Positions 44,721 to 49,540 of a stretch of 54,053 nt of DNA are shown piece after piece. The DNA is from Anaeromyxobacter sp. (GTDB taxonomy: Bacteria; Myxococcota; Myxococcia; Myxococcales; Anaeromyxobacteraceae), in the NCBI GenBank assembly GCA_025360965.1, contig JANYBC010000248.1, positions 1 to 54,053 on the forward strand. The letters are read 5' to 3'. A program made the position numbers and the translations under genes. Position 1 is the stretch's first letter; the number at the start of each line of letters is the position of its first letter. The notes under the pieces are model-generated. The model was not told where the DNA came from, searched no databases, and saw only the letters and a list, made by a program, of their open reading frames with translations.

Positions 44721-44802
44721 GTGACACCTAGCATACAGGAAACGGGCCGGCCGTGCCGGGGGGGGGGCCGGCGGAAAGGCGACCATCCCCTTGAAGCGTG
44801 AG

Positions 44803-45567
44803 ATGATCCCGCCCATGCGCCGGCTCCAGGCCGCCCTCGAGGACTTCGGGGGCATGATCTTCTTCGCCTTCGAGGCGGTGGCCTGGGCCTTTCGCCCGCC
44901 GTTCCGGCCCTGGCTGATCCTGACCCAGATGGCCTTCATCGGCGCCGGCTCGGTCTTCATCGTCGGGGTGACCGGCACCTTCAGCGGCATGGTCCTGGCG
45001 TTGCAGGGGAATTACGCCATGAAGCAGTTCGCCGCCGAGGGCTACGTGGGCGGCTCGGTCGCCCTGGCCCTGGCGCGGGAGCTGGCCCCGGTCCTTACCG
45101 CGCTCATGGTCACCGGCCGGGCCGGGAGCGCCATCGCCACCGAACTCGGCACCATGCGGGTCACCGAGCAGATCGACGCCATGGACTCGATGGCGGTCAA
45201 CCCCATCCAGTACCTGGTGGTCCCCCGCGTCATCGCCGCCCTGCTGATGTTCCCGGCGCTCACCATGGTGTTCAACCTGCTCGGCTACCTGGGCGCCTAC
45301 GTGATGGGGATCTACGTGGCCCGGATCCCGGTCGGCCCCTTCATCGAGCACACCCGCACCTTCCTCGTGACGGGCGACATCGGCCACGGGCTCCTCAAGG
45401 CGGTCCTCTTCGGCCTGGTGGTGGCGGTGATCACCTGCTGGCGCGGCTACTCGGCCACCGGCGGCTCGCGCGGCGTCGGCGAAGGGACCACCCGGGCGGT
45501 GGTGAGCAGCTCCATCGGCATCCTGGTGGTCGACTACGCCCTGACCCTCTTCTCGGTGGGCACCTGA
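44803..45567 (+). CDS. mlaE: MlaE family ABC transporter permease
   Basis: A 254-residue inner-membrane permease for lipid transport. Typical sequences are VGVTGTFSGMVLALQG, VGGSVALALARELAPVLTALMVTGRAGSAIATELGTMRVTEQIDA, and a C-terminal CWRGYSATGGSRGVGEGTTRAVVSS, the MlaE/YrbE hallmark. Five to six helices. Starts at TTG 44791, ATG 44803 and ATG 44815 are all possible; none has a strong ribosome site. It is the first gene of an mlaE-mlaF-mlaD-type operon; the stop shares a base with the next ATG. Confidence 0.92.
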   Translation: MIPPMRRLQAALEDFGGMIFFAFEAVAWAFRPPFRPWLILTQMAFIGAGSVFIVGVTGTFSGMVLALQGNYAMKQFAAEGYVGGSVALALARELAPVLTALMVTGRAGSAIATELGTMRVTEQIDAMDSMAVNPIQYLVVPRVIAALLMFPALTMVFNLLGYLGAYVMGIYVARIPVGPFIEHTRTFLVTGDIGHGLLKAVLFGLVVAVITCWRGYSATGGSRGVGEGTTRAVVSSSIGILVVDYALTLFSVGT

Positions 45568-46307
45568 TGATCCAGGTCCGCGACCTCTGGAAGTCCTTCG
45601 GCGGGAATCAGGTCCTCAAGGGGATCACGCTCTCCATCCCGCGCGGCCAGACCTACGTGGTGCTGGGCGGCTCGGGCTCGGGCAAGACGGTGTTGATGAA
45701 GCACGTCATCGGCCTCTTCCGGCCCGACCGCGGTACGGTCACCGTCAACGGCGTGCAGATCACCGGCCTGGAGGGGAAGGCGCTCACCGAGGCCCGCCGG
45801 GTCTTCGGCATGGTCTTCCAGGGGGCGGCGCTCTTCGACTCGATGACCGTCTACGACAACGTCGCCTTCCCGCTGCGCGAGCGCGGCCACTCCCCGACGC
45901 CCGAGCTGGTGCGCGAGAAGGTCCTGGCCAAGCTCAAGGTGGTCGACCTCGGCGACGAGGTGCTGGAGCGCTTCCCGGCCGAGCTCTCGGGGGGCATGCG
46001 CAAGCGGGTGGCGCTGGCACGGGCGCTGGTCTCGGACCCTCAGGTGGTCCTCTACGACGAGCCGACCACCGGCCTCGATCCCATCACCACCGACTACGTC
46101 GACGGGATGATCGTGGCCGCCAAGCAGAAGCTCGGCGTCACCTCGATGGTCATCAGCCACGACGTCGCCTCGGCCTTCAAGGTGGCCGACAGGCTGGCCG
46201 TGCTCTACGATGGACGCCTGGCTGCTGAGGGCACTCCCGCCGAGGTCAAGGCGAGCACAGACCCGTACGTGCAGCGCTACCTCTCCACCTGGTTCCAGAA
46301 GCAGTGA
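45567..46307 (+). CDS. mlaF: MlaF family ABC transporter ATPase
   Basis: A 246-residue ATPase. Walker A GGSGSGKTVLMKH, Q-loop MVFQGAALFDSMTVYDNVAFPLRE, signature [15 protein letters not shown], Walker B VVLYDEPTTGLDP and the switch His in MVISHDVAS are all present. The MK and LSGGM forms are typical of MlaF (YrbF) ATPases. It powers lipid movement by the MlaE permease and MCE protein encoded on either side. Confidence 0.95.
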   Translation: MIQVRDLWKSFGGNQVLKGITLSIPRGQTYVVLGGSGSGKTVLMKHVIGLFRPDRGTVTVNGVQITGLEGKALTEARRVFGMVFQGAALFDSMTVYDNVAFPLRERGHSPTPELVREKVLAKLKVVDLGDEVLERFPAELSGGMRKRVALARALVSDPQVVLYDEPTTGLDPITTDYVDGMIVAAKQKLGVTSMVISHDVASAFKVADRLAVLYDGRLAAEGTPAEVKASTDPYVQRYLSTWFQKQ

Positions 46308-46317
46308 GCTCCCGCCC

Positions 46318-48024
46318 GTGAAGATGCCGCACCTCAACAAGGCCCTCTCGGTGGGCGCGCTGGTGGCGGTGGCCGGCGTGGCCTTCCTGCTGGCCTTCAC
46401 CTTCTTCAAGAAGGGTGGCTACTCCGAGCGCGACAGCTACCTGGTCCACGCCTACTTCGCCGACGCCACCGGCCTGACCTGGAAGAGCCGCGCCCAGATC
46501 GCCGGCATCCAGATCGGCGAGATCGAGAAGATCGCGCTGGTGGGCCAGCGGGCCAGGCTCGATCTGCGCATCAAGAAGGGGATCGAGCTCAAGGCCAACG
46601 CCTGCTTCACCAAGGCCTTCCCCTCGGCGCTCCTGCCCGACGCCCTGCTGGAGGTCTCGCTGGGCGACGAGGGACTGCCCTCGCTCTCGTCGCTGCCGGT
46701 CGAGCAGCGCGAGGTCAAGTGCGTGCGGGAGACCGCCAGCACCCAGAAGCTGATCGAGGCCATGTCGAAGATCGCCGCTGACATCCAGGTGGTGACCGCC
46801 GATCTCAGCAAGACCGTCGGCGACCAGCGCGGCTCGATGCGGGAGATCATCGAGAACATCGCCAACCTGACCCGGCAGCTGGATCAGACCGTCTCCGAGA
46901 ACTCCGGGAAGCTGACCCGCCTGCTCGACAACGCCGAAGCCATCTCCGGCGACCTGCGCGACGTGACCGGCTCCGAGAAGGGTGGGCTCAAGGAGATCGT
47001 TCAGAACGCCGAGGTCATCTCGCGGCAGCTGCGCCAGCTCCTCGGCAGCGCCCAGGGGATCGTCGACGGGACCTCGACCTCGGCCCCGACCGGAACCGGG
47101 ACCTCGACCGGGAGCGCGGTCGCCGTCTCGAAGCCGTCGGTTGGCGCGGAGACCACCACGACCACCACCACGCCGGCCGGCACCACCACCACCACGACGG
47201 TTGCCGGCGGCGGTGGAGATGCCAGGGGGGTCAAGCAGGCCATCGAGAAGGCCAACGACAGCCTGGCCCGCCTCGACAAGCTGCTGGCCAAGCTGCAGGA
47301 GGGCGACTCGGTCGCCGGCAAGCTGCTCAACGACGAGAGGCTGGGCAACAAGGTCGGTGACGCGATCGAGACGTACAGCGCCTACGTCGACAACGTCAAC
47401 CGGATGCAGGTCGAGGTGCGGCTGCGCTCCGAGTGGCTCCTCAACCAGACCGCCGCCAAGACCTACTTCGGCATCCGGCTCGTGCCCCGGCCAGACAAGT
47501 ACTACATCTTCGAGATGGTCTCGGACCCGCGCGGGATGGACACCGTGACCACCACCACCACCAGCACCCAGGTCGGCTCGGCGCCGGCCACGCCGGACAC
47601 GGTGGTCACCACCAAGACCCACGAGCAGAAGCTCACCTTCTCCTTGCAGATGGCCAAGCGCTACGGCCCGGTCGCCCTCCGCGTGGGCATCATCGAGAGC
47701 TCTGGCGGCGTCGGCTCCGACCTGCACCTCTTCGACGACCGGCTGCAGGTCTCGGTCTCCATCTACCAGTTCAGCCGGCCCTTCCCCGGAGTCTTCCCGC
47801 GCGCCAAGGTCTTGCTCAACTACGCCTTCCTGCAGAACTTCTACGTGACCGCCGGCTCGGACGACTTCCTCAACCAGTGGCGTTCGGGCAAGTACCCGGG
47901 CGGCCCCAAGTTCTCGCTCGGCACCGACGTCTTCTTCGGCGGCGGCCTCTTCTTCACTGACGAGGACCTGAAGACGCTCTTCGGCATGGGTGCCGCCTCG
48001 GCGCTGACCCAGGCAACCAGGTGA
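46318..48024 (+). CDS. mlaD: MCE/MlaD protein with long C-terminal beta-rich domain
   Basis: A 568-residue protein (566 from ATG 46324). A single N-terminal membrane helix (LSVGALVAVAGVAFLLAFTFF) is followed by the MCE domain (VHAYFADATGLTWKSRAQIAGIQIGEIEKI, about 42-120), a helical region (about 140-250), and a Thr-rich linker encoded at about 47080-47215. More helix follows. The last 190 residues alternate in strands (VEVRLRSEWLLNQTAAKTYF, KYYIFEMVSDPRG, KLTFSLQMAKRYG) and suggest a membrane beta-barrel or large beta-sandwich. Classic MlaD is about 180 residues. This form could span from inner to outer membrane without a separate shuttle. Confidence 0.85.
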   Translation: MKMPHLNKALSVGALVAVAGVAFLLAFTFFKKGGYSERDSYLVHAYFADATGLTWKSRAQIAGIQIGEIEKIALVGQRARLDLRIKKGIELKANACFTKAFPSALLPDALLEVSLGDEGLPSLSSLPVEQREVKCVRETASTQKLIEAMSKIAADIQVVTADLSKTVGDQRGSMREIIENIANLTRQLDQTVSENSGKLTRLLDNAEAISGDLRDVTGSEKGGLKEIVQNAEVISRQLRQLLGSAQGIVDGTSTSAPTGTGTSTGSAVAVSKPSVGAETTTTTTTPAGTTTTTTVAGGGGDARGVKQAIEKANDSLARLDKLLAKLQEGDSVAGKLLNDERLGNKVGDAIETYSAYVDNVNRMQVEVRLRSEWLLNQTAAKTYFGIRLVPRPDKYYIFEMVSDPRGMDTVTTTTTSTQVGSAPATPDTVVTTKTHEQKLTFSLQMAKRYGPVALRVGIIESSGGVGSDLHLFDDRLQVSVSIYQFSRPFPGVFPRAKVLLNYAFLQNFYVTAGSDDFLNQWRSGKYPGGPKFSLGTDVFFGGGLFFTDEDLKTLFGMGAASALTQATR

Positions 48025-48031
48025 GGCTCCG

Positions 48032-48553
48032 GTGAAGGCCGGGTACAAGCTGGCGCTGGTGGGGCTGGTGGCGGTGGTGGTCGGGCAGCTGGCCGTGCAG
48101 GGTTCGGGGAAGACGTTGCGCCTCGGCGAGCCCCCTCATCCGTTCGCGCTGCAGACGGCCGACGGCACCGCGCTGGAGCTGGCGTCGCTGCGGGGCAGGG
48201 TGGTGGCGGTCAACTTCTGGGCCACCTGGTGCCCGCCCTGTTTGCGCGAGCTCCCCGAGCTGGCGGCGGCGCGCCAGCGGGACGGCGGGCGCTGCCTGGA
48301 GGTGGTGGGCGTGGCTGAGGAGTCGGCACGGGAGGACGTGGCGGCGATGGCCAGGACGCTGCCCTACCCGGTGGTGCTCGATCCGCGGGCCGGGGTGGCG
48401 GCCGCCTGGGGCGTCAGCGCCTATCCGCGGACCTTCCTGCTCGACCGCGAGGGGCGGCTGGCCCGGGTCTTCGACGGGCCGATCGACCGGGGCCAGCTCG
48501 AGGCGGCGGCGGCGCCGCTGCTCGACCCCGGGTGCCAGGGGGCGCGCCCGTGA
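48032..48553 (+). CDS. TlpA-like membrane-anchored thioredoxin
   Basis: A 173-residue periplasmic thiol oxidoreductase. An N-terminal membrane anchor (LALVGLVAVVVGQLAVQ) is followed by a thioredoxin fold with active site NFWATWCPPCLRELP and the cis-Pro loop SAYPRTFLLDREG. It is of the TlpA/ResA type, reducing periplasmic disulfides, for instance in apocytochrome c maturation, which suits the c-type heme proteins of this window. The start is GTG 48032, 7 bases after the MCE gene. The stop overlaps the yacG start. Confidence 0.9.
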   Translation: MKAGYKLALVGLVAVVVGQLAVQGSGKTLRLGEPPHPFALQTADGTALELASLRGRVVAVNFWATWCPPCLRELPELAAARQRDGGRCLEVVGVAEESAREDVAAMARTLPYPVVLDPRAGVAAAWGVSAYPRTFLLDREGRLARVFDGPIDRGQLEAAAAPLLDPGCQGARP

Positions 48554-48759
48554 GGCGCCATTGCCCCGCCTGCCGGCAGCCGGTGGGTGAACGGACCGTC
48601 AACCAGTCCTTCCCCTTCTGCTCCGAGCGCTGCCGGCTGGCCGACCTCGGGAAGTGGTTCGACGGGCAGTACCGGATCCCGGGCGAGCGGGCCGGAGACG
48701 GCGCCGCCGGGGTGGGGGGAGCCGACGACGAGGACGAAGGCGGTGGCGGCACCACCTGA
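48550..48759 (+). CDS. yacG: DNA gyrase inhibitor YacG
   Basis: A 69-residue zinc protein. The YacG zinc site CPACRQPVG plus FPFCSERCRLADLGKWFDGQYRIPGE is complete and close to consensus. The Gly/Asp-rich tail is disordered, as usual. It binds GyrB and reduces gyrase activity. The start is GTG 48550, overlapping the TlpA stop (GTGA). Confidence 0.92.
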   Translation: MRRHCPACRQPVGERTVNQSFPFCSERCRLADLGKWFDGQYRIPGERAGDGAAGVGGADDEDEGGGGTT

Positions 48760-48814
48760 CCCGGAGCCCGGCAGATTCGGCGCCGGCGCCTCGTTATGGT
48801 ATGAGCCCGCCGCG

Positions 48815-49540
48815 ATGGGCTTCGTCGACCTCCACTGCCACCTCCTCTGGGCCCTCGACGACGGCGTCGAGACCGCAGAGGAGGCTGTCGCCGCAGCCAG
48901 GCTGCTGGCCTCGCTCGGCTTCAGCGACGCCGCCCCCAGCCCCCACGCCAGCCCGGGGATGCCCTCCGGCGACCTGGCGGCCTGCGACGCGCGGCGGGCC
49001 GAGCTCACGGCGCTGCTGCTGACCGAGCAGGTGCCGCTCCGCCTCCACCCCAACGCCGAGAACAAGCTCGACGATGCCTTCTTCGGGCGGCTCGAGGTGC
49101 CGGCCCGGCGCGGCATCGGCGAGAGCCAGCGCTGGGCCCTGGTGGAGCTCCCCTTCCGCGCCGCCGTGCCCTCCCTCCCGGAGCTGGTCTTCCGGCTGCG
49201 GCGCCGCGACGTGCTCCCGCTCTTTGCCCACCCGGAGCGTTGCCAGGAGTTCGAGCGGCCCGGGCGGGCGGCCGAGGTGGTCCGGCTCGGGGGTGGCCTG
49301 CAGCTCAACGTCGGGGCCCTGGCAGGGCTCTACGGACGGCTCTCCCAGGACCTGGCGGAGCAGTTCCTCGAGGAGGGGCTCTATGCCGTGGCCGCCACCG
49401 ACCTGCACCGGGCCGACGGCGCCGAGGAGTGGATCCCGGAGGCCATGGAGCTGCTGGAGAAGCGGGGAGGGGACGGCACCCTGGAACGGCTCTTCGCCAC
49501 CAACCCCCGGCGGGTGCTGGCCGGCGAGGAGATCGCGTGA
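48815..49540 (+). CDS. CpsB/CapC-like PHP-domain phosphatase
   Basis: A 241-residue PHP-fold protein: VDLHCHLLWALDDGVET at the start, SPHASPGMPSG, LFAHPERCQEF, LNVGALAGLYG and ATDLHRAD follow the metal-binding histidine and Asp pattern of CpsB-type tyrosine phosphatases that regulate capsule export. No tyrosine kinase (Wzc/CpsD) is near, so the substrate is open. It is 55 bases downstream of yacG, and its stop overlaps the flippase-like gene by four bases. Confidence 0.85.
   Translation: MGFVDLHCHLLWALDDGVETAEEAVAAARLLASLGFSDAAPSPHASPGMPSGDLAACDARRAELTALLLTEQVPLRLHPNAENKLDDAFFGRLEVPARRGIGESQRWALVELPFRAAVPSLPELVFRLRRRDVLPLFAHPERCQEFERPGRAAEVVRLGGGLQLNVGALAGLYGRLSQDLAEQFLEEGLYAVAATDLHRADGAEEWIPEAMELLEKRGGDGTLERLFATNPRRVLAGEEIA

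Follow-up and report, generated by a model that had tools for sequence, protein, structure and literature searches.

The closest described counterpart of the protein treated here is the long MlaD from the three-component MlaEFD system of Veillonella parvula; statements on it refer to the main text of Grasekamp et al. 2023 (PMC10665443). This protein of 419 residues comprises a membrane anchor, an MCE domain, a helix of ~150 residues and a C-terminal domain, which is modelled by AlphaFold as a ten-stranded barrel and which, as an isolated construct, was recovered in outer-membrane fractions. V. parvula possesses neither MlaA nor MlaC, and its mlaEFD genes are followed by tolC and tamB, with TamB being named as antagonist. 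Long proteins represent the commonest form of MlaD (85 % of the homologues), a barrel was inferred in 103 homologue sequences (~10 %), and the absence of MlaA and MlaC in organisms with a long MlaD is described as a tendency rather than a strict rule (PMC10665443).

The window, i.e., the whole stretch of 54,053 nucleotides of Anaeromyxobacter sp. DNA that was analysed, is likely to encode a long bridge-type MlaD of this V. parvula kind. Compared by domain order, both proteins have an anchor, an MCE domain, long helices and a strand-rich C-terminal domain; in both organisms mlaE, mlaF and mlaD lie together, and MlaA and MlaC were found in neither genome. The two differ in length (568 versus 419 residues), in a linker of ~50 residues splitting the helices of the window protein, in the genes following the operon (TlpA-like gene in the window versus tolC and tamB in V. 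parvula) and in the presence of MlaC in many other genomes of the window's phylum. As judged by domain order, the window protein is a myxobacterial form of the published long bridge-type MlaD and no new kind of system. The idea of a single polypeptide bridging the envelope, reached independently in the initial annotation of this DNA, is accordingly already published, and the window MlaD represents a useful further example of it; among the side results, its coexistence with MlaC, the pairing of TolC-family genes with MlaC and the collagen-like linkers deserve to be retained. The terms "Myxococc-" and "Deltaproteobacteria" are absent from the main text of PMC10665443, although its supplementary species lists may contain them. 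A literature search on MCE proteins with barrels in myxobacteria retrieved no paper (most subscription journals being outside its scope), and a search combining MlaD with "Myxococc-" yielded, among the matches listed, none on this subject by title.

The window protein probably links both membranes to move lipids between them. Six MlaD copies would be seated via their MCE domains on an inner-membrane MlaE2-ABC2 transporter, the helices would cross the periplasm, and the C-terminal domain would form a small β-barrel residing in the outer membrane. Powered by ATP, MlaEF would thereby transport glycerophospholipid from one membrane to the other, with inward movement as the most likely direction and with neither MlaC nor MlaA taking part. 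Hexamer, outer-membrane insertion, lipid substrate and direction are transferred here by analogy from the published relative.

Other MCE systems are less similar. PqiB and LetB/YebT have several MCE domains each, and LetB/YebT is an MCE protein of periplasm-spanning length. The window protein differs from both by its single PF02470 match, which is the sole one found in the genome. Like the window MlaD, PqiB is long enough to span the periplasm (PMC10665443). MlaD of E. coli agrees with the window protein in the anchor, the single MCE domain and the partners MlaE and ATPase, but comprises only 183 residues without long helices or C-terminal domain (PMC10665443, main text) and uses MlaC and MlaA, neither of which was found in the window's genome. 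In line with this difference, the window protein scores 46.7 bits against TIGR04430 (MlaD equivalog of the six-component system), below the curated cut-off of 135, and falls outside this family. The same applies to TIGR00996 of the mycobacterial Mce proteins (58.6 bits, E 5.5e-16; curated cut-off 140.5). The latter (Mce1A-1F) likewise contain an MCE domain followed by long helices, and the matches to solved Mce1 chains (8fed) are confined to profile positions 3-238; however, none of the mycobacterial Mce matches extends to the C-terminal domain of the window protein. Moreover, mycobacterial Mce proteins form a heterohexamer, in which a small six-stranded barrel is assembled from one strand per chain (PMC10665443, main text).

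Gene, reading frame and operon

The positions of the genes and of the protein segments are compiled in Table 1. Translation of the long mlaD starts with GTG at 46318 or with an in-frame ATG at 46324. A false or frameshifted open reading frame was considered and ruled out, since relatives retain the full length in a single frame. The minus strand is likewise open throughout, which is interpreted as a shadow frame resulting from the GC richness of the gene.

Table 1 Genes and protein segments of the long mlaD locus (window positions)
Feature	Position	Strand	Extent	Basis or remark
mlaE, MlaE-family permease	44791..45567	+	258 aa	PF02405 E 2.1e-77; TIGR00056 225.5 bits, cut-off 212.2
MlaF-like ABC ATPase	45567..46307	+	246 aa	PF00005 E 8.3e-34
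Long mlaD	46318-48024	+	568 aa	Open frame over 568 codons; PF02470 above cut-off
N-terminal membrane anchor	46342..46410	+	Residues ~9-31	Hydrophobic stretch judged by reading the sequence
MCE domain	46423..46692	+	Residues ~36-125	PF02470 match 40-95; outer limits chosen by the authors
First helical stretch (predicted)	46723..47064	+	Residues 136-249	α hydrophobic moment
Thr/Gly low-complexity linker, not conserved	47065..47220	+	Residues ~250-301	Alignment of 26 sequences
Imperfect ACC triplet array in linker	47152-47195
Second helical stretch (predicted)	47221..47400	+	Residues 302-361	α hydrophobic moment
Conserved strand-rich C-terminal domain, putative outer-membrane barrel	47401..47961	+	Residues 362-548	Profile A3
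Second Thr-rich stretch, within strand-rich domain	47542-47616	+	Residues ~409-433
TlpA-like thioredoxin gene	48032..48553	+		PF08534 E 3.1e-20; gap to mlaD 7 bases
CpsB/CapC-type capsular polysaccharide frame	48587-49540	+		PF19567; just after TlpA-like gene

The genes form an operon in the order mlaE-ABC-mlaD, the ABC stop codon and the GTG of mlaD being separated by 10 bases. The best NCBIfam match of the ATPase is MlaF (NF008809), at 192.4 bits and below the cut-off of 441. An ABC gene precedes mlaD in all nine relatives' loci examined, and both mlaE and the ABC gene are located upstream in seven of them; in the remaining two (L022, L033), the sequence retrieved stops inside the ABC gene. 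The TlpA-like gene perhaps belongs to the same operon, and four of the nine loci (L002, L003, L009 and L022) likewise have a relative of this gene behind mlaD. Further out, Pfam assigns two upstream frames to M16 peptidases and another to a pseudouridine synthase, and the downstream neighbours are CpsB/CapC, LPG-synthase-like and ABC-permease frames.

The anatomy proposed in the initial annotation, i.e., anchor, MCE domain, helices, linker and strand-rich end, was confirmed by the reading frame, the PF02470 match, the hydrophobic moments and the conservation. The PF02470 (MlaD) match over residues 40-95 attains 34.3 bits (cut-off 25.1), and solved MlaD/MCE chains (e.g., 7d08, 6z5u and 7ch8) are among the matches of profile A1. 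Overall, 34 open frames were matched, 26 of which were aligned, including the window's own protein (L001). Three were left out as the same genes as L001, L002 and L003 (L005, L006 and L007, respectively), and five as partial (L017, L020, L021, L025 and L031). Relatives retrieved by scanning genome contigs originate from two Myxococcales MAGs (74 and 63 % protein identity), while a relative from a Nitrospirae MAG (L004) is 28 % identical across the whole protein.

Helical section and linker

A long helical region following the MCE domain, as is typical of long MlaD, is predicted from hydrophobic periodicity. In a profile of the 26 sequences, residues 136-250 display an α moment of 1.24 (0.75 in shuffled sequences) and residues 302-361 one of 1.29 (0.76 shuffled), values reached by none of 500 shuffles in either case.

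The Thr-rich linker reported in the initial annotation is present in the window protein (51 residues by alignment), but is no trait of the family, since 32-53 residues occupy this position in 12 of the 26 sequences and only 7-15 residues in the other 14. Eight of the 26 linkers (L003 and L008 to L014, i.e., L008, L009, L010, L011, L012, L013 and L014) contain collagen-like Gly-X-Y runs of 7-11 triplets with X and Y residues varying from sequence to sequence; none of 500 shuffles of the same residues reproduces the respective run. Runs of four occur in the linkers of L015 and L016, whereas runs of at least four are found neither in the window protein nor in its nearest relative (L002). Seven of the eight carriers belong to a single genus (g3), so that independent cases are few; the eighth, L003, is from the window's genus and is the same gene as L007 of genome G164. 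A literature search on MCE domains with collagen-like segments retrieved no paper, most subscription journals being outside its scope.

The linker is therefore characteristic of certain lineages and, where present, interrupts the helical section. Its lack of conservation and the Gly-X-Y runs argue against an unbroken helical tunnel in the window's family, and the low-complexity insertion of ~50 residues makes it more likely that the periplasmic section of the window protein consists of two flexibly joined helical bundles. Natural linker variants of 7-53 residues allow a direct test of whether a continuous tunnel is required in the helical section. One may also speculate that collagen triple helices re-sort the six chains into two trimers, giving two trimeric barrel assemblies. 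This arrangement, though highly improbable, would imply a switch from six-fold to three-fold symmetry between MCE ring and outer membrane and would fit the trimeric-barrel suggestion for V. parvula MlaD.

C-terminal domain

Profile A3, which covers residues 345-568 and was built from 25 of the 26 aligned sequences (L008 omitted), matches 166 of the 193 genomes of the phylum, including 137 of the 149 genomes with a completeness of ≥ 90 % and a contamination of ≤ 5 %. Across these 25 sequences, 18 columns are invariant. This conservation is stronger evidence for a real C-terminal domain than the alternation of hydrophobic residues noted in the initial annotation. The number of alternating segments in residues 362-560 (10 versus 8.15 in shuffles) is not above chance, being reached by 215 of 1000 shuffles. 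The β moment of residues 362-548 is modestly raised (0.77 versus 0.63) and reached by 19 of 500 shuffles, a frequency to be weighed in the light of this being a second statistic, run after the segment count had come out negative. For comparison, the MCE domain with its known β fold has a β moment of 1.01, reached by 3 of 500 shuffles. Given this weak alternation, the sequence pattern by itself is no proof of a membrane barrel.

Comparison with known families and structures did not assign the domain. Pfam searches with the 25 members revealed no family in common (two families with one member each, best E 0.06), and comparison of the profile with solved chains retrieved no relative of the domain, the two matches being at chance level (best E 0.055 over 25 positions). 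AlphaFold models, computed from alignments of four rows (the window protein and three related loci), attained a pLDDT of 37.3 for the C-terminal part and of 35.3 for the whole protein; they are unusable and were excluded from the evidence. A Foldseek search with the low-confidence C-terminal model yielded 483 matches at E ≤ 10, none of them at E ≤ 0.001; the best 50 of the 483 mix soluble β proteins, among them factor H binding protein and lipocalin, with the outer-membrane barrels OmpU, OmpX and OmpC and were disregarded. Since the models are unusable, assignment of the C-terminus as an outer-membrane barrel rests on resemblance to V. parvula MlaD and on conservation, and with this qualification the proposed single-polypeptide bridge agrees with the published domain order.

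Both the modest β alternation and the unusable models would also be compatible with a soluble periplasmic β domain which docks on an outer-membrane protein, e.g., a TolC-like one, with the periplasm still being spanned. PqiB, by way of comparison, is held to span the periplasm together with PqiC. Docking of this kind would gain from the location of tolC and tamB behind mlaEFD in V. parvula (main text of PMC10665443) and from the TolC-family genes adjoining MlaC in four of eight loci of relatives. However, none of the eleven window frames tested by Pfam is TolC-like, and the C-terminal domain of V. parvula MlaD, a protein of the same domain order, fractionates with the outer membrane (PMC10665443, main text). 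A soluble docking domain is therefore considered unlikely, and a domain residing in the outer membrane as a putative barrel is preferred.

The second Thr-rich stretch (Table 1) is shorter in the Nitrospirae relative and perhaps represents a surface loop.

MlaA and MlaC in the genome and the phylum

The own genome harbours one PF02470 (MCE) gene, one PF02405 (MlaE) match and two PF04357 (TamB) matches. Profile searches detected neither MlaA (PF04333) nor MlaC (PF05494) in it, while both proteins are recovered by these searches in the controls, E. coli and Caulobacter; a caveat to the absences is that the assembly, a MAG, is split into 259 contigs (given as 100 % complete and 1.43 % contaminated). 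A complete separate MlaA/MlaC set, named beforehand in the initial annotation as the observation speaking against its proposal, was accordingly not found. MlaA was likewise not found in the Nitrospirae MAG containing L004.

Among the 193 genomes of the phylum, PF02470 is present in 188 and the long mlaD finds a match in 172 (own genome included), whereas MlaC is present in 145 and MlaA in none. The C-terminal domain co-occurs with MlaC in 131 genomes; 35 contain the domain without MlaC, 14 MlaC without the domain and 13 neither of the two (seven genomes were counted as domain-negative by their absence from the list of positives, and the totals agree with 145 and 166). Within the window's family (own genus included), the domain is present in 21 of 24 genomes, and MlaC was not found in 14 of these 21. 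Three one-contig genomes of this family (G036, G066 and G082) contain the C-terminal domain, with MlaA and MlaC not found. In the own genus, MlaC was detected in two of four genomes (2.0e-19 and 4.1e-24), both assemblies being 79 % complete.

The joint occurrence of C-terminal domain and MlaC in 131 genomes indicates that bridge and shuttle do not exclude each other. The replacement of the soluble shuttle and of the outer-membrane partner, as put forward in the initial annotation, thus agrees with the MlaA- and MlaC-negative own genome, but is no general rule in the phylum. Genomes with the C-terminal domain of the long MlaD and either with (131) or without (35) MlaC offer a direct test of whether the MlaC shuttle is required by the bridge, tolerated alongside it or in competition with it.

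The wide distribution of MlaC (145 of 193 genomes) and the fact that diverged members can escape profile searches could also suggest that the extended MlaD works together with divergent, undetected MlaC and MlaA proteins, the C-terminal extension then being accessory. This appears very improbable, considering that MlaA is detected in none of the 193 genomes and that the profile failing to detect MlaC in the own genome does find it in two genomes of the same genus. Preference is therefore given to a bridge functioning without these partners in the window's organism, and MlaC may serve another system than the long MlaD in many genomes of the phylum.

A TolC-family gene adjoins MlaC in four of the eight MlaC loci examined (L039, L040, L042 and L044), as assigned by Pfam (PF02321) in L040, L042 and L044 and by tblastn in L039. 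In L052 and L053, MlaC was matched but a TolC-family gene was not; L043 and L050 are little informative on the pairing, since the MlaC query itself remained without match there. A literature search on MlaC with TolC in myxobacteria retrieved no paper, most subscription journals being outside its scope. In L044, the gene order is mlaE, a short mlaD (183 residues), a TolC-like gene and MlaC, and this locus seems to represent a second Mla-type system, in which a TolC-like protein takes the place of the MlaA used by E. coli.
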